A stretch of DNA of 40,345 nt, taken from positions 1 through 40,345 of the forward strand of contig JACPAX010000044.1 in the NCBI GenBank assembly GCA_016180585.1, read 5' to 3'. The DNA is from Candidatus Omnitrophota bacterium. Its GTDB lineage: Bacteria > Omnitrophota > Gorgyraeia > 2-02-FULL-51-18. The notes below the pieces were generated by a model that made no database searches, was not told the DNA's origin, and saw only the letters and a program-made list of their open reading frames with translations. Positions 1-27,733 of this stretch are shown in pieces (the first letter of the stretch is position 1; every line of letters starts with the position of its first letter). The translations under genes were made by a program, and so were the position numbers.

Positions 1-163
1 CCGGGCGCCCCGTCGAATGACGGGGCGAACCATCCCATCGGCTTGCCCAATTTCTGAACGATACAATGGGTACGGCTGGACTCGCCCGGTCATTCGACCG
101 GGCGCCCCGTCGAATGACGGGGCGAACCATCCCATCGGCTTGCCCAATTTCTGAACGATACAA
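1..163. repeat. 97-bp tandem unit next to tRNA-Val: 79-bp hairpin element plus duplicated tRNA end
   Basis: A 97-bp unit is repeated in tandem; the base at position 1 matches position 98 and the match continues from there. Each unit is a 79-bp element (complete copy 85-163) plus an 18-bp copy of the 3' end of the adjacent tRNA-Val (67-84, identical to 164-181 inside the tRNA). The left copy is cut by the window edge, so more copies may lie outside. The element begins with two adjacent 7-bp hairpins. The layout fits insertion into the T-loop of a tRNA gene with regeneration of its end, but no integrase gene is visible, so mobility is inferred. Confidence 0.8.
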
Positions 164-237
164 TGGGTACGGCTGGACTCGAACCAGCGACCTCTTCGAT
201 GTGAACGAAGCGCTCTAACCAGCTGAGCTACGCACCC
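164..237 (-). tRNA. tRNA-Val (anticodon CAC)
   Basis: The minus strand folds into a complete 74-nt cloverleaf. It has a 7-bp acceptor (gggtgcg with cgtaccc), a D-arm gctcagctggttagagc, a 5-bp anticodon stem cttcg/cgaag around loop TTCACAT, a 5-nt variable loop and a T-arm gctgg-ttcgagt-ccagc. The anticodon is CAC, which reads the valine codon GUG. CCA is not encoded; the discriminator A is followed by TTG. The last 18 nt recur at 67-84 beyond a 79-bp insert-like element. Confidence 0.95.
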
Positions 238-289
238 TAATCCTTGATCCGCCGGCAACACGCTTTGACGGGAACCAATCCTACACCAC

Positions 290-386
290 TGGGCCCGGTT
301 GGACTCGCCCGGTCATTCGACCGGGCGCCCCGTCGAATGACGGGGCGAACCACCCCATCGGCTTGCCCAATTTCTGAACGATACAA
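290..386. repeat. 79-bp hairpin element flanked by an 18-bp tRNA-end duplication (CAU tRNA copy)
   Basis: Positions 308-386 repeat the 79-bp element found next to tRNA-Val (85-163) with a single difference that I can see (c instead of t near 353). It lies between 290-307 and 387-404. These are identical 18-bp copies of the 3' end of the neighbouring CAU tRNA, covering the discriminator, acceptor strand, T-stem strand and last five T-loop bases. The element therefore sits at exactly the same point in two tRNA genes of different sequence. Each copy carries its own tRNA's duplication, which points to site-specific insertion and not to one segmental duplication. Confidence 0.8.
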
Positions 387-460
387 TGGGCCCGGTTGGA
401 CTCGAACCAACGACCCGCTCATTATGAGTGAGCTGCTCTAACCGACTGAGCTACAGGCCC
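387..460 (-). tRNA. tRNA with CAU anticodon (elongator Met, or Ile2 if lysidine-modified)
   Basis: A complete 74-nt cloverleaf on the minus strand. It has acceptor gggcctg/cgggccc, D-arm gctcagtcggttagagc, anticodon stem gctca/tgagc with loop CTCATAA, and T-arm gttgg-ttcgagt-ccaac. The anticodon CAU is shared by initiator Met, elongator Met and tRNA-Ile2. The paired first acceptor base pair (G-C) argues against initiator; Met and Ile2 cannot be separated by eye. CCA is not encoded. Its 5' end is only 7 nt beyond the rpoD stop codon, so it probably shares that transcript. Confidence 0.93.
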
Positions 461-13925: not shown

Positions 13926-14097
13926 CTTTTTGAAACATGAAGCATGAGACATGAAGCAGGAGACATGAGACATGAAGCATGAAGCAGGAGGCAGGAGGCA
14001 GGAGGCATGATAAAAGAGCCTTCTTTTCCTGTTTCATGCTTCATGCTTCCTGTTTCATGCTTCATGCTTCCTGTTTCCTGCTTCGTGCTTCCTGTTT
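13926..14097. repeat. Inverted array of heptanucleotide repeats
   Basis: The left arm (about 13935-14010) is a run of 7-nt units in strict phase: catgaag, catgaga, caggaga, caggagg and similar. The right arm (about 14028-14096) runs in the opposite sense: ttcatgc, ttcctgt, ttcctgc, ttcgtgc. The two arms are complementary overall around a short centre near 14011-14027 and could form a very long imperfect hairpin. The open frame that crosses it is Cys/Ser/Leu/His-rich low complexity and is not a credible gene. Confidence 0.85.
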
Positions 14098-18358: not shown

Positions 18359-21300
18359 TTATACCGATCCTCCAATGGCTCTTTCAGCCATATAGACTTG
18401 CGCGACAAGACGGCCGATAAGCTTCGAAACAAACGGGATGAGAAGCGCCCCCCGCAGCGCGGCTTTCAGTTCATCTCTATTTACGCGTCTGCCGACAATC
18501 TGGCTGTAAACTTGAGCGGCGCGTTCCCAATCTTCTTCTAATGAAACCAGGTCCATGAGTACGCCGACCGGCGTAAGCGCATAAACACCGATGAGGTTTT
18601 TTTCATCGGGCGATTGCAGGCGAAAATACCTCTGATTTTTGCCATAAAGCGCTTTCGCCTGGTCTAAATAAGTATCTGCCACAAGGTAGCTTGTAGGAAG
18701 GTCGAGTTTCGCTAAGTCCCCCTTGCTCATGGCCATGAATTGAGCGGAGTTTCTCACGCCGATCGCCCTCGCTAAAGCCGCTATTTTTTCAGCCTTACCC
18801 GGCTCCCGTGAAACCAAGACCACTTGAGAGCCTTCGGCCAGCGTCTGGCTGAAGCGAAGAATGAGGTTTCGATAAAAAGCATCGTTCGGGAGGTCCGGGA
18901 AGCTGTCTACCAAAACTACTTTTGCGGTTGGCTTAGTGCTTCTTGTAGAGACAAGCATACCATTGGCCTCATGAAGACCAAATGCCTGCTCGGTGATATC
19001 CGTCGCGCCGGACAAGTCGTGTCTTTCTTTTTCACGTACTTTTGTCAAAGCTTGGATTGAGACATCGTAAGTCAATTGTTCCCGAGTGTCTTGATTCACC
19101 ACGACGAGGATATCCTGAGCGTCTTTTTTAAGAGAAAGAATTTGAATATTCCGATCATCCTTCATGAGCGATAATTCTCTCTGAAAACCTTCAGGAAGAT
19201 TCCAGCCTACACTAAGAAAAAAACGCGCGCGGGATACTTCCGAATGAGCTGGTGCTTTGGTCGTGGCCAGCCGCGTACCCTCCGCCGATTTTTCTATAAA
19301 CTCTTCCAAAAACGGCGTCACATAGGCACCATAAGCTTCGGGCATCTCTTCTAAAACGGTGAGACGAAGACCCTTATAATATTGGGCGGGTGTATACAAA
19401 TCTCTTGCGACTCTCTTTAAACCTTCTAATGTAAGTGGTTTAATTTTTGTATCCTTCCATTTTTCTGCCGGATTGTCTCCCCAAGGCCACTTTAATTCAG
19501 TAGCCAGGTTTTTAAAGAACGCCAGAACTTCGGCCTCATCCTCATTGACCCATCTTAATCTATCCATGGGATGAAAGGAGGCCTGCTTGACCGCTTTCCG
19601 ATATGCATCTATCTGAGGAAGAACATGGCCAAAGGTGTCACGATGAACACTGAAAAGAACCTGATAAGCCGCACGATCAGCGGAGAAATTTAATGGAATA
19701 TCGAGCGTGAATGATTCCTCAAACTCTATCGGCCTCCATTGACCTTGATCATTCCATATCTCTTTTGCAACCCCACTTACTTTTACGGTTGCCGGTTTAA
19801 TATCCAAAGAATTTTGATCATATTCTTTTATCACAGTAACCTTAATTTTCGTGATGCCATTTTTACTGTTAAGGGTATAAGATTGCGTGGCCGATCGCCC
19901 GCCGGATTTTTGAGTCCGATGCCGATTGAGTAGATTAGCTGTCGAAGCGTCATGGACTACAGTCGCAGGCTGACCTTTAAGTTCTTTTAAAATTGGTCCG
20001 GCTTGCACTTTACCAAGCTCGACTCCCCACTGGTCAAAGCTGAAAATATTTAAAACCACCCCTTCAGCAAAAATCTGATGTTCATACATTGCCACGAGAG
20101 CGCCTAAAGCCCTAGGAGACATCCTATTGACCAAAATGGAATTCGTAGGATTATTTCCTTTAAATACTCTGTGAGGCGCAATGGCCGGATGAACGCCCTC
20201 GGCGAGCACTTCATCCAGCGATTTACCGAAAGCGAGCGCCTTTGTTTGAGCAAAAAAGTTCGCAAGTAACTTTTCGTGATGATCGCCTTGCGGATTATGG
20301 CTATTCGAAACGCCTATAAAATCGGCCGGAATGATTTGATTTCCTTGGTGAATCAATTGATAAAAGGGGTGTTGGCCATTGGTGCCGGCTTCTCCGAAAA
20401 TGATGGGTGAAACCACGTAATCGATAGGTCGGCCGCTTCGATCAACGCTTTTTCCATTGCTTTCCATAAAAGCCTGTTGCAGATACGCAGGCAAGCGATG
20501 CAAATACTGATCATAAGGCAATACCGCATGGGTTTCGGCGCGGTAAAAATTGGTATACCAGACGCTGAGAAGCGCCAAAATGACAGGGATATTGTGTTCG
20601 AAAGAAACGTTTTTGAAGTGCTCATCCATGTCATGCGCTCCGGCGAGAAGCTCTTGGAAATTATCGAAGCCGACATAGGCGGCGATTGAAAGGCCGATGG
20701 CAGACCAGAAGGAATAGCGACCGCCCACCCAATCCCAAAACTCGAACATATTGGCCGTATCAATACCGAATTTTTCTACCGTCGTTTCAGGATCAAGCTT
20801 CTTGATGACTTTTTCGGTGACATCGGTTCCGTCGACGTTTGAAACAAAATGAACTTTTACATTTCCCGTGGCATACGGTTTCAAGGCCTCTGTCACCATG
20901 ACAGGTCCGAGATCTGACCCGCCGATTCCTATATTGACGATATCCGTGATCCGTTTACCCGTATATCCTTTCCATTCGCCCGAATTGACAGCTTCAGAAA
21001 ATGCTCTCATCTGATCCAAAACCCGGTGCACGTCTGCGGTAACATCCTGTCCGTTGACGACAAGCTTTTGGTCGCGCGGTATTCTTAAAGCCGTATGAAG
21101 TACGGCTCTATTTTCAGTCTGATTGATCTTCTCTCCGGCAAACATTTGTTGAATCGCATCGGCAAGGCCTGTTTCTTGAGCCAATTCCAAAAGATGTTGA
21201 ATCGTTTCTTGGTCGACCAAATTCTTTGAGTAATCGACAAAAACCTCCGCGCCGTTTGATTTAAATGCTTCACTTAAGCGCTTGGCTCTTTCGGGATCGG

Positions 21301-24300
21301 ACTGAAACAAATCGCGCAAATGTTGAGCTTGTACCCTCGTAAAATCAGCCTGTAGCTTTTTCCATGCTTCGGTTGTGGTCGGATTTACCGTCTGTAACGC
21401 GAGACGGAAGCCAGTGGTTGGATTCGATCTCAAAACTTCATTTGATAAGGGTAGCTCCACCTCGGAAAGATGGTGTTTACTCGCCAATTGAGAACCGGCT
21501 TTTGCAAACTCCACATCGGCGTATTGCGTCGGAGGAGTATAGTTTTTTGGAGGCAAACCAATCCTATAATATTCCTGATAGCGATCCCAAGCCATTTTCT
21601 CAGCTCCTTCAAGATCCGAGTAATTGCTTGGAACGATTTGATGATGTAAAGGTGTCAGTTCTCCGCTATAATTTCCGACGGCTGCGCCGTAACGCGCCAA
21701 GAGATTTTTATCAATACCCATTCCATAAGCCTTTGATTTGGCGTCCGTACCTGAGGGACGAATCTCGAGGACTTTGTCCGGAAAATCAAAATAAACACCG
21801 TCTCCGACAAAATAGATTTCTTTCAAGTCGCTGAAGCCAAGCTCATCCCTTTCGAATAAACCATTCAAGATATCGATGATATTTTGTTTGGTGATTTTGC
21901 CATCTTGATAAGCCAAGGCCATACTCAAGTAGAACGTGTAGTTCTTGGTTCTCTTTAAAATACCTTCATCCTTGGCCTTTGCCATCACAACCGGATCAGG
22001 CTCGCTTTGGTTGTAATAGGGGATATCTTCTCGAATATCAAAACGGCCTTTAATGTCATTCTGCTCAAATATCTGGCTCAGATAATCCGAAAGCATCATG
22101 CCCCTGGATTCAAGATACGCAGTCATAGCCGCTTCGATGACAGTTAGCTCTCCGTCGCTCTTTTCTCTCATGCCAATGGCGATGCGACCATGCTTGCTCC
22201 GGATCAATTCTTCCGGCCCGAAAACAGCACCGCCCGATTCCTCACCGCCGAATAACATGCGCGGCTGAACTCCCAGATTCACTTCTCTTTTGAAAGCATC
22301 TGTAACAACAACGGGTTTCTTGGGATCATTATCGGGATTTTGCGCTATTTGATATTCTATTTTTCTTTGTGCGGCGGCTATTTCCTTGAAACCAACCGGA
22401 GTATTGATTACTTCAACTCCATTTTTTTTCGACCACTCGCGCCAGGCGGTGGAAGAGGCAGTGGTCATGATGATAAATCTCGGATGATTTTCCCAAAGCC
22501 CCGCCGCTTTTAAAGATTCCGCTTGGTAAACGATGGCGAGAAAGAAAGATTGATTCGGTGAATAAACAGCCAATATCCTGTCCTTGCCCAAAATCAAATA
22601 TTCAATGCCCAATTTCTTGAGATATCCCGCACGATCCGCCGACTCGATCTGCGCGGTCACAAGCCTGTCTGCGTCGGGATCAGCCATCAAGATAACAGTG
22701 CCGATAGGTTTGTCTTTCAACAGCGTATCGTATCCCATGCGTTCCATGACGGGAATTGCGGTGGTTTCTCCCGTTTTGGGATCGCGTTGAACAATAGTGG
22801 TATCCTGCGACCAGTCATAAACTTGTCCGTTCGGTTTTAGTTCTTTTCCGATGCCGCTAAAAAACGGGTCCTGATTGGTTCTGAACCATTCGAAAGAGCC
22901 CGCGATTCCTAATCTTTCAAAGATCGGTGTGGCGGTTTGATGAAATGCGCCGGAAACGTTATCAATGATAATCGGATTTTTTACTTTTCGAATACGGTTA
23001 AGATTGACATCCGTCGCCACGCCTTTTCTTAAATACTCGGTATAATCATTGACGCCATTCTGAATCAAAACCATGAACTGATCGTCAATCAGTGGATCGT
23101 CTTCTGCGGCGATCTCAAAAGAGTATTCGCCAGTCTTATCGGCCGTTTCGAACATCTCACGGATTTTTTTCACAAAACGGATAGATTCTTCGGGTAAATA
23201 CTGACCTCCTTCCGAGTCAAGGTCTTTAGTCGCAAAAAACGAGCTATTGGCATGAGAAGACGTGCCAAACTCTCCTCCCGCAAGATCATACATAAAAGTC
23301 AAAAACGAGGTCATCCAGATCGTTAAAGTTTCGCGCTTGGCAGGAAGATATGTTTTGATGCCCTGAGCGGCTTGGATTCTTGCAACTTCACTCACATAAT
23401 CTTTTGTATTATAGCGGACTTCTCCCGCGGCTATTTTTTGCAGCTTAGCGTCGGAATAATTTTCTTTGGCAACAAGCGTTTTGGCAAGTGTGGCAAAAGC
23501 TACGCCGACAAGATTGACACGAAAACGTGTGTCGAAAGAATAAAGCACATTCTGAGGCGACCGGATTCCGGCCGTTGCTTGAGCAGCTTCTTTCTCGTAA
23601 TCTTTAAGCCACTTCCATAGTCCCAATCCTTTTGGATTATCCACTGCATCATAATCGCCGAGATTTTCTTTTCGAATAGTAACTTTGATGCGGCCTTTTT
23701 CGTGGATATCGAATAACTGATTATCTTTGACATGCTGTGGCGTGCTTGCTTCCACTTGATTAAGATAAACTTGTTCCAAATCCGGACGTGTCGGGCCAAG
23801 TACGGGTGTTGCCGCCAGCCGCAAACCATAAAGATTCCAAATCAGAATCACAGCTACTTTATCTAGTGGAGGATGAAGCACTGGATTATAATGATGATTA
23901 CCAAGCCAAACAATAGCTTTTGGATCAACTTGGTTCAGCTGTCTCTGGCTAACTTTAAGATTTAAATAATCCTTGTAATCAATCTCCGGCAAAGATGAAA
24001 AAAATCCGACCCGGTAGGTATCGCCTGACTGAAAAAGCAGCGCATGTGCATAAGGTATTTCTGCTTTCATCATTACGCCAATAAGAGAGACCGTCGGAGT
24101 TTGCTCTGGAAACACTTTGTCTAAACCGGAGCGCTTTAGAATTTCCTGAAGGTCTCGAACATTCTCGGGCGTGTTATCCAAGGGAAATTCCGACCAGGTA
24201 AAGCCTCTGGTTGTATCCTGGCCAATCACACGGCGCTTGCTTGGGCTTTGATCAAAAACAAGCGTTGCAAGACGCACCCCGCTGGTTTTCTTGGGCTTTC

Positions 24301-27300
24301 TCAAATCTGTAATGTCCCACTGAACTTGTTTGCCATCTGTATCAATGGCAGTTAGCAGATCACTTTTCACCTCAAGCGCAATAAAAGGGCTCCTGGATTC
24401 GGCCTTTGTGGATCGGCCTGGAGCTTCAAGAATCGACTCCACTTTCCCGACAAACGAATCCCAAATGGCAAGAGAAGGTAGGTAATTATCGTGATAAATA
24501 GGGCTTAAATCGGATGTGTCATAAGAATGCGTATAACTCCTGATTCCGACTACTTTATAATTGCTTCCAGGAATATTCGCCACAGCGGAAATAGGGCCGG
24601 CTTGATTCGGGGATGGGTTAAAACTTATTGCTTGTGGATGATGAAATTGATCTTTAATGTATTGTTTTATTTGAGAAGGCAAATCCGCTGCCATGCGGAC
24701 ACCCAAGACTTTGTGAACATCCAACAGATTGTCTGGAACAGATTCTTCTGACACGATGTTGAAATAAAACATGTAGGATCGTGTCAGAAATGAATTTTTG
24801 GGAGACGCTTTAGCTTCTGTGTATTTCCTATTAAAGGCTTCACTTACAAGAAGATAAATGTTTCCCTCCTTATCACGACCAAAACCACGGAAAGAGTTGG
24901 GTTCGTTTATGGTGGCACGGTCACTCTCGACCCATTTATAGGCATCCGATCTTTCAATCGTTACCTCTGAGGGACCAAAGCTCATTCTATAAATATCCCT
25001 GCCAAGGACATCCTCATCCCCATACCAGTGTCTTGTTTCAAATTGTAGCGTATCCTCATTTACTAATTGAACGGCGAGAGTAGTGTCAGATCCATCTTGA
25101 CTGGGCTGTTGTGCCAAAACATTGCCTTCCAACTCAAAAAGACGCTCTTCAAACCGCTTGAACGATGGAACCAGCTCATTTTCAAAAAAGGTTTTTAGTC
25201 CAGCTAGTCGCCCACCTTTTTGCGAGAATAGATCAGAAGCTTCTTTAATGATGCCGTCATTAGAAACATATTCATGAAGCTCATTTAAACTGAAACGAGA
25301 CAACAGGAAATTGGCAATAGCTCCCTGAGCATAATCCCCTAGACCATGCTTAGCCGCAATCCATGAAGAAGCCAAGACCGCCTTAGCCTTGGGCTGGTGT
25401 TCCGATCTTTCTTCAAATGTAGTCGAAATAAGATCCAAGATGGCCTTTGTAGCGTGGTAAAAACTAATCTGACCTGATAAATATTTTTTCACCACATCAA
25501 CCAGTGCATCAGGGTAGTCTTCTGCCAATTCGTTCAAAACAGCTTGAATTCCTTCTGAAGTGGCCACAGGCTGAAACGGCTTTGCTTGAAAGTGAAAATA
25601 ATGATTCGGCCGTTCGAATCGCGCAGTGGCTTCTTCCGGCGTAGACCCAAATGCAAATGGTAAGGCCTCATCAACTACGATTGACCATGTTGAAGAAGTT
25701 TTACGAGTAATTCCTGAACTTTCAAGCGATGCAGGGATATCTTCTTCGCTCAAAATTATTGTTTCACCCACGGGCCCAGTTAATAAAAAGTTTGCTTTTC
25801 CAGTTTCAGTTTTATGCTGACTAATAACTCTTTTTAATACGGGGACTATCTGATCCCATTCCACTTGAATTTCTGCCATTCTCGCGCCAGCTATTGCGGG
25901 AGTTGTCTTAATTGGCCTACCCCCCACAAATCCAGCGCCGCCCACTCCGGCCAAGGGACCGCCCAGAGCATTTTCTCTTTCTTTCATGGCTAGAACGATT
26001 CGGTTGGAATCATCGGCGGAAGTTGCCAAACCATCTGCTAATGCTTCGTCGTAAGGAATGCCCAATTGACCCATTTGCAAAACACGCATCAACATGTTGG
26101 TGTGAACGGTTGTTTTAAAACTAGCCGCCATCGGAGACGCGGTGACAGTCTTGACAGCATCAATATTTTGATTTAAAAGAAGCTCTTCATACCGCTTTTG
26201 ATTCGTTTCCTGCAACACCTGAGGAGTAATACAGATATAGGAAAGGCCCTGGGCTTTCAGGAGATATTTAAGATTGGGAGTATGGTAGCCGCCGGTGATC
26301 AGCACCGCTTTTTCTTGGTTTTCCGAGTTCATTTTCTGAGTCAGATTTTGAATGAACTTTTGGTCTCTTTCGTAGGTGAGAGAGTAAAATACTTCGCATC
26401 GCTTGACGACGTCTTCATAGCCTGATTCGAGGAAAACCGCTCGTTCATAATGGGCCCCCAAATCCATGATCTTTTTATTCAAAAAGCCCGTGAGTCGACT
26501 GATGTCAAAGCTTAACTTATTTTTTTGGTACTCCGCGAATTCATCCGGCGTGAGCGTCAAATTAAAGAGCTTCTTCAAAGATTCGAGATTCTTTGAAGCT
26601 TGTATAAGATTTGCCTCGTCTTCATTATGGGTAAGAGATCTGAATACTTCCTCTTCCAAAGCTTCTTGTTCCTCGAGAATGGCCTTGGGCCGGATATTCC
26701 TTGCTTCCTTTAAATAATGGAAGTACTTGGAGAGTTCGGGATATTGGCTAAGATTCATGCCAACTTTTTCCTCAAGAAGCGCAAAGAACGCTTTCTCGCT
26801 TGGCTTGTCAGTGCCGGAAATCTTGGATGGAGCCTGTGCCGCAACGAGTTCTTTCTGATCGTCGGCTGGCAGAGAGGAAACGACGGCCTTTTCTTCGTCG
26901 TTCGCTTTCTTGAAATCAATCTTCGATTCGATTTCCTTGAGTACTTTTAGCGCTTTAAGATGCGGGTAATTCTCGGAAAGAATGCCAAGTTTTTCCGCTT
27001 CGTTCGTGAGTATTTCAAAATAATCCGTTAAGGATAACCGGCCTTTCTCAAACTTTTGATATTTCTCATCAAAAGCGGACAAAAAAGGGTTGTAGATTTT
27101 TGGCTTTAAGGCGTTGATCGTGGCTTCGATTTGGGCAAGATAGGCTTGGAATTTTTCTCTTTCTTTGGCAACCGCGCGATAAGTGGCGACGGATTTGGCA
27201 TACAGGCTTAAATCTTCGACGCCCCAGAGAATGAAATGATGCTTGGAGGTGAGGTCGAGATATTCCGTGCCTTGAAGCTTACCGTTGATCAAAAAGGATT

Positions 27301-27733
27301 TGGCGACTTGTTTTCTTTTTTCTTCGGAGGCGTATTTTCTTAAGAATGAGAGGGATTCATCGCCGGAACCGGCTTCGAGGAAAACATATTTAATCGGGTC
27401 TTTTTTGAAGATCAGATCGAGCGCTTTAGCGACGTTGATTTGACCGGAATTATTGGTATGGGCGTCTTGGATGAGAATGACTGTCTTATTCGAATCTGAT
27501 TGGTAGGAGTCTTCAATCGTAGCTATCGATTCGGGAATGGCAGGCAATAATTTCTGAGCCCAAGCCTTGGAGTTTTCAGCGTCCGCCCCCCCCTGTGGGG
27601 TTATTTTAAAAATATCGGGATTGGCGAAAGCAAATTCCTGAAAAAGGAAAGCGCAAATCAAGAAGCTGGAAACGGTCTTAAGGAAGCCGCCTTTTCTTCC
27701 TTTATTTATCTCAAATTTAAAATGCGGTGACAA
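18359..27733 (-). CDS. Giant exported protein (3124 aa) with phosphoglucomutase and glucose-6-phosphate isomerase domains
   Basis: One unbroken frame, starting at TTG 27733 behind a perfect AAGGAGG with 5-nt spacing; no in-frame ATG lies nearby. A signal peptide ([23 protein letters not shown]) predicts export. Residues about 50-560 resemble the ChaN/EreA/TraB fold ([37 protein letters not shown]). About 560-1330 is unrecognised. About 1335-2010 is a phosphohexomutase: YSFDTRF, a serine loop FGTSSHAN (Ser about 1493, lacking the usual NP), metal loop DPDADR (1685-1690), FGGEESGGA and RPSGT (1992). About 2115-2606 is glucose-6-phosphate isomerase ([51 protein letters not shown]). It lacks about 48 residues at 2318/2319, including the SKTFTTQET loop. 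About 2607-3124 is unrecognised. GC content is visibly below all neighbours. Confidence 0.93.

Follow-up and report, generated by a model that had tools for sequence, protein, structure and literature searches.

Among the described systems, SegB of the T-even phages is a GIY-YIG homing endonuclease whose free-standing gene lies in a tRNA region, and it drives the local amplification of tRNA and nuclease genes (PMC13096335, PMC2988022). As far as the available parts of these accounts go, the loci described here resemble SegB in having a stand-alone GIY-YIG nuclease gene that adjoins tRNA genes, in the local duplication of tRNA and nuclease and, at some loci, in a similarity between the 5' region of the tRNA and the 3' end of the nuclease gene. 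Unlike the present elements, SegB is phage-borne and has a tRNA intergenic region as its listed target, and neither the splitting of tRNA genes nor flanking double hairpins are described in the portions of the two reports that were available (PMC13096335, PMC2988022). The loci discussed below are instead found in bacterial genome assemblies, their ORFs have about 80 codons, and their tRNAs are broken in loops.

In fungal mitochondria, mobile ORFs form gene hybrids, as described in excerpts of one report for atp6 of Allomyces and for atp6, atp9, cox2 and nad3 of Glomus, with a GIY-YIG nuclease in one of the Glomus cases (PMC3630166). The likeness, on the basis of the same excerpts, is that an endonuclease ORF is inserted together with a duplicated gene part, which displaces the native part and leaves the gene complete (PMC3630166). 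These elements differ in that they enter mitochondrial protein genes and not bacterial tRNA genes, and the word hairpin is absent from that report (PMC3630166).

Double-hairpin elements are also on record from the mitochondria of Allomyces (Paquin et al. 2000, cited in PMC2800124). Going by that second-hand account, the elements described here are similar, being short, GC-rich double hairpins of presumed mobility. The Allomyces hairpins are reportedly short, GC-rich and thought to be mobile, and we know of no tRNA-loop specificity or nuclease link for them.

Small nuclease-encoding insertions have, in addition, been found in the rRNA genes of CPR bacteria, and those that encode a GIY-YIG protein have no match to group I or group II introns (PMC11270868). 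They share with the present loci the small size, the encoded nuclease and the residence in structural RNA genes of uncultured bacteria, but their targets are rRNA genes, they are mostly of the LAGLIDADG type and intron-like, and tRNA genes are not treated in that study (PMC11270868). None of the sources on SegB, the fungal ORFs and the Allomyces hairpins describes, in its available text, GIY-YIG genes together with hairpins and broken tRNA loops in bacterial genomes; a description of such tRNA-breaking GIY-YIG elements was not found in the literature searched, most subscription journals being outside its scope.

The starting point here is two short units at the start of the window, i.e., the whole stretch of 40,345 nt that was analyzed. 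The preferred reading, to which a probability of roughly 0.7 is given, is that a tRNA-gene-targeting GIY-YIG element breaks a tRNA loop while an intact copy of the tRNA is kept or regenerated, and that the units of the window are derivatives of this element that lack the ORF.

The 79-bp units behind tRNA-Val and tRNA-Met

The window starts at base 1 of its contig (C21 of genome G000), and the features of this locus are all on the minus strand, which is the sense strand of the tRNAs. Read in that sense, the order is an rpoD-type sigma factor gene (468-2216, an ORF named from its sequence and matched in 59 related genomes), an intact tRNA-Met(CAU) (387-460) and an intact tRNA-Val(CAC) (164-237), each tRNA being followed by its own 79-bp unit; the first gene serves as the anchor for this order. 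Both tRNAs were found by ARAGORN and by the Rfam tRNA model, the latter giving 69.5 bits for tRNA-Val.

At tRNA-Met, the unit occupies 308-386, its 44-nt double hairpin core lies at 305-348, and the last 18 bp of the tRNA are repeated at 290-307. At tRNA-Val, the unit (85-163) is composed of a 35-bp spacer and the hairpin core, which is located at the T-loop motif GGTTCG/CGAGTCC (82-125) and precedes the repeated last 18 bp of tRNA-Val (t57-74; 67-84). There the element is repeated in tandem with a period of 97 bp, and the array is truncated because the window begins at contig base 1, which leaves only positions 1-66 of the second copy, identical to 98-163. The initial annotation had described the same element, with one visible difference, behind tRNA-Val and a CAU tRNA, enclosed at both sites between two copies of the last 18 nt of the tRNA and tandemly repeated at tRNA-Val; each of these points was borne out, with every tRNA supplying its own 18 nt.

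The two complete copies of the unit are one base apart (GATGGGATGG against GATGGGGTGG), copies of an 84-nt repeat show 100% and 95% identity, and the core consists of two adjacent GC-rich hairpins with a folding z of -5.8 against shuffles. A chance origin of the repeats is excluded by the identity of the copies together with a core that folds far better than its shuffles. The 79 bp had been taken as a whole for the conserved unit; instead, conservation is confined to the 44-bp double hairpin, and the full unit with its spacer occurs in the genome at the tRNA-Val and tRNA-Met loci only. It counts against the preferred reading that the 35-bp spacer is restricted to these two loci, where the near identity of the units suggests copying between tRNA-Val and tRNA-Met. 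The element is likewise not the isolated tiny one that was first supposed and belongs to a family with ORF-bearing members, while its description as small, non-coding, directed to the T-loop, sparing an intact tRNA and present at several tRNAs still stands.

Since the array ends at a contig edge, and short-read metagenome assemblies can misjoin repeats, the units might represent an assembly artefact or a plain tandem duplication in which no mobile element took part. Such an origin is very improbable, as the same architecture recurs with different sequences in many independent assemblies and phyla; nearly all of the genomes compared are metagenome assemblies, from which the loci were collected by search and by position. 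Another possibility is that the insert is a tRNA intron, of group I or another type, or a processing signal, and not a mobile element, given its place in a tRNA loop and the fact that group I introns often contain GIY-YIG genes. This idea is scarcely credible, because the inserts are not large enough and because the broken copy is accompanied by a complete tRNA at the loci examined. Rfam returned no intron or ribozyme match in ten loci and the window, the sub-threshold ones being far below the gathering scores and treated as chance; a group I identity was rejected, as the conserved intron core was not found in the same ten loci and window.

Elsewhere in the window, intergenic arrays of a 7-bp unit (CATGAGG / TTCATGC) are present in both orientations at 13931-14097, and a single ORF of 3124 aa (18359-27733) lies in a stretch of low GC content (0.43-0.48 vs about 0.60 around it).

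The double hairpin and the GIY-YIG nuclease gene

In the same genome, two extra copies of tRNA-Gly(GCC) on contig C87 also contain the 44-bp double hairpin, one of the two having a nested insert, and a further copy of the hairpin lies inverted behind tRNA-Ala on C73, within a T-arm-like remnant. Every copy in this genome is flanked by GGTTCG on one side and by CGAGTC on the other, which corresponds to the T-loop. Being a short repeated insert made of two adjacent GC-rich hairpins, the unit of the window qualifies as a double-hairpin element. Shorter palindromes of similar sequence occur outside tRNA genes as well (C91, C2 and C67). The one on C91 (GGTCATTCGACC, L054:984) is of the same type and is located within a clpX-like reading frame, which it leaves unbroken.

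Because similar hairpins occur outside tRNA genes, the mobility of the hairpin may be independent of the nuclease. A further step would be to regard the hairpins as REP-like palindromes moved by a Y1 (HUH) transposase, with tRNA loops as one landing place and an incidental link to GIY-YIG genes. Six Y1_Tnp matches in the genome and the hairpins outside tRNA genes, including that in the clpX-like frame, are in line with this view; it is nevertheless improbable, given the restriction of all double-hairpin copies to T-loop motifs, the tight linkage of the same hairpin to the same nuclease in two bacterial classes, and the D-, anticodon- and T-loop breaks that are found beside nuclease genes across phyla.

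The linkage is seen on C87, where a GIY-YIG ORF of 84 codons comes immediately after the tRNA-Gly that is interrupted in its T-loop, and an intact tRNA-Gly comes next. In G092, a genome from the same phylum and another class, a double hairpin lies in the T-loop of tRNA-Ser(GGA) and is followed by a GIY-YIG ORF and an intact tRNA-Ser. The two hairpins are 90% identical over 49 bp, and the two nucleases share 61 of 82 residues (74%), whereas the next best match in 384 genomes reaches 48%. Because the same arrangement is shared by a tRNA-Gly and a tRNA-Ser locus, hairpin and nuclease appear to travel together, the tRNA being the target's own. Since the tRNA of each site matches its target, it would not move with the T-loop element. 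The tRNA-Gly locus on C87 is the likely autonomous partner in the genome of the window.

The 18-bp duplications had at first been compared with the attachment sites of tyrosine integrases, and a search for an integrase gene with matching att sites had been suggested. Three integrase-family genes are indeed present in the genome, and the duplicated part is the tRNA 3' end, as would suit remnant att sites of an integrase island; none of the three, however, is next to a copy of the element. Moreover, the 18-bp repeats match each target tRNA on both sides, where a shared attP would impose a single sequence, and related elements break D- and anticodon loops and carry GIY-YIG genes. An att origin is highly unlikely in view of these points, and the integrase analogy gives way to a GIY-YIG partner, because it is a GIY-YIG gene that the hairpin adjoins in C87 and G092.

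Other GIY-YIG loci of the same genome with an arrangement like that of C87 are a second one at tRNA-Pro(CGG) on C40, with a break in the anticodon loop and a duplication of 94 bp, and a third at tRNA-Ala(CGC), with a break in the D-loop; a fourth ORF has a copy of a tRNA-like 5' fragment on either side. Four tested ORFs match PF01541 with 41.8-64.6 bits, against a curated cut-off of 22.6, and Y8, Y19, G21, R29, H33 and E65 are invariant in 16 sequences.

A second short family, of about 100 bp, is also located behind tRNAs and has a duplicated tRNA 3' part. Its members end with GGAGGGCGCC/GA and start with an inverted copy of the T-arm that follows each target tRNA; they are found at tRNA-Gly(TCC) on C29 (L023) and tRNA-Trp on C10 (L032) of G000, and at L107, L084 and L085.

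Empty sites and a proposed route of insertion

Empty sites, named in the initial annotation as part of the evidence that would establish insertion, exist in several relatives, in which tRNA-Met and tRNA-Val stand behind the rpoD-type gene and lack the unit (G007, G008 for tRNA-Met, G012, G015, G004, G009 and G011). Homologous tRNA sites are occupied in some species and empty in others, the polymorphism that characterizes free-standing homing endonucleases. Other occupants are found at the same locus. In G003, an intact tRNA-Met is followed by a short spacer, a different double hairpin in the T-loop and then the 3' part. In G006, the hairpin in the D-loop of tRNA-Met is nearly identical to that of the nuclease-bearing tRNA-Val locus of this genome; it is another double hairpin, whose three genomic copies are all in tRNA D-loops, two at ORF-bearing tRNA-Val and one at the ORF-less tRNA-Met, and it can be read as an independent parallel to the ORF-less units of the window.

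According to the mechanism that we infer from these arrangements, the element would consist of a GC-rich (double) hairpin and a stand-alone GIY-YIG gene of about 80 codons. The nuclease would cut a tRNA gene inside a loop, which for the family of the window would be the T-loop (GGTTCG^AGTCC), and repair of the break would bring a copy of the hairpin, either alone or together with the nuclease gene, into the cut site. The repair would also duplicate part of the target tRNA, leaving a complete tRNA next to the broken one. The units of the window lack the nuclease gene, and the part of the tRNA that is repeated there is the last 18 nt (t57-74); the units may have been moved in trans by an element of the C87 type, or may have lost the nuclease part through recombination between repeats. 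A point against this account is that the layouts differ, the window having a duplicated 3' end plus spacer and the ORF-bearing loci a duplicated 5' part.

The intact tRNA might also have arrived with the element. In such a home-and-rescue cassette, a nuclease and a complete tRNA of the right type would be carried together, the resident tRNA would be split, and the carried one would take over its function; the units of the window would then be what remained after recombination between tRNA repeats had deleted the 5' half and the nuclease gene. This alternative is possible, if doubtful. In G001, the outer halves of tRNA-Asp, when joined, are exactly the uninterrupted, native tRNA-Asp of its genus mate G000, and the inner intact copy differs by a compensatory pair change in the acceptor stem and a wobble. 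At the window locus of G010, the leftover 3' part of tRNA-Met is closer to the native tRNA-Met of G008 (CGGACCC end) than to the adjoining intact copy, and duplicated 3' parts often end exactly at the tRNA 3' end, which points in the same direction. Against it, tRNA-Gly of G000 and tRNA-Ser of G092 each match their target in the company of nearly the same hairpin and nuclease. In addition, the duplication includes the upstream flank of its own locus in several cases, among them tRNA-Pro on C40 (94 bp) and tRNA-Pro of G003 (about 90 bp), as local duplication predicts, and the divergence of the inner copy could also be explained by an old duplication. For the T-loop family, in which C87 and G092 have different tRNAs, duplication of the target is thus the better fit, and a carried rescue tRNA would fit G001 and perhaps G010; both may occur.

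GIY-YIG genes beside tRNAs in other lineages

In 24 related genomes, 22 of 57 non-UvrC GIY-YIG ORFs are within 400 bp of a tRNA, all 22 on the strand of the tRNA, and about 60% of the ORFs in this survey lie away from tRNAs. One clade of their tree has 18 tRNA-associated members out of 21, and the catalytic-type residues (GIY, YIG, R, H, E) show little or no variation across it. A tRNA-Val D-loop group and a Pro/Tyr anticodon-loop group of two members are supported, in a tree based on few columns and with several forks without support.

A scan of one genome per species gave 66 relatives in named assemblies, among them members of Omnitrophota, Patescibacteria, Bacteroidota, Verrucomicrobia, Dehalococcoidia and Ignavibacteria. 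The query was a narrow alignment (A2) with mainly tRNA-Val/Asn members, a broad GIY-YIG alignment having no conserved stretch, and it biases the scan toward tRNA-associated relatives, though most matches come from other phyla. Because the query was built from tRNA-associated proteins, the 57 of 66 relatives that lie within 400 bp of a tRNA (about 5 expected from the local background), all 57 on its strand, therefore describe that subfamily. With the C87 nuclease as the query of a separate scan, 17 of 30 loci are near a tRNA, again all on the same strand. In viral contigs, only 13 weak matches were found.

The tRNAs of related loci are broken in the D-, anticodon- or T-loop, and the halves joined across the insert give a complete tRNA at Val (L165), Asp (L138), Pro (L068) and Tyr (L153). 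Break points are in or beside loops in 61 of 72 cases, with 66% expected, so the preference for loops is real but moderate. A hairpin borders directly on the broken tRNA copy in 33 of 50 cases, compared with 9.6% in controls, when a stem of at least 6 and a loop of 0-6 are allowed, a setting adopted after the first one was seen to miss tight palindromes; under a stricter setting (stem at least 7, loop 3-10) the figures are 15 of 51 and 7.5%, and the P-values for these hairpins and for the tRNA-linked loci ignore relatedness.

The chances appear evenly balanced that these loci represent a phylum-spanning class of elements of about 0.3-0.5 kb, in which a GIY-YIG nuclease breaks the loops of essential tRNAs, an intact tRNA is supplied or regenerated, and ORF-less hairpin derivatives, the 79-bp units of the window among them, are spawned. 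Such a class would be a natural counterpart of home-and-rescue drive and would imply that many uncultured bacterial lineages carry minimal selfish elements targeting tRNA genes, which are among the most conserved and essential sites of the genome. It would also account for the broken tRNA copies next to intact ones, and would offer a very small system for studying the persistence of a nuclease element that depends on preserving the function of its essential target.

Flanking repeats were not found at most GIY-YIG ORFs away from tRNAs. Three such ORFs (L125, L133 and L141) have near-identical, hairpin-rich repeats of about 30-90 bp on both sides. At L150 (G003:C92), tandem copies of a GIY-YIG fragment occur together with parts of tRNA-Val and an exact repeat of 223 bp, and they look like the product of local amplification.
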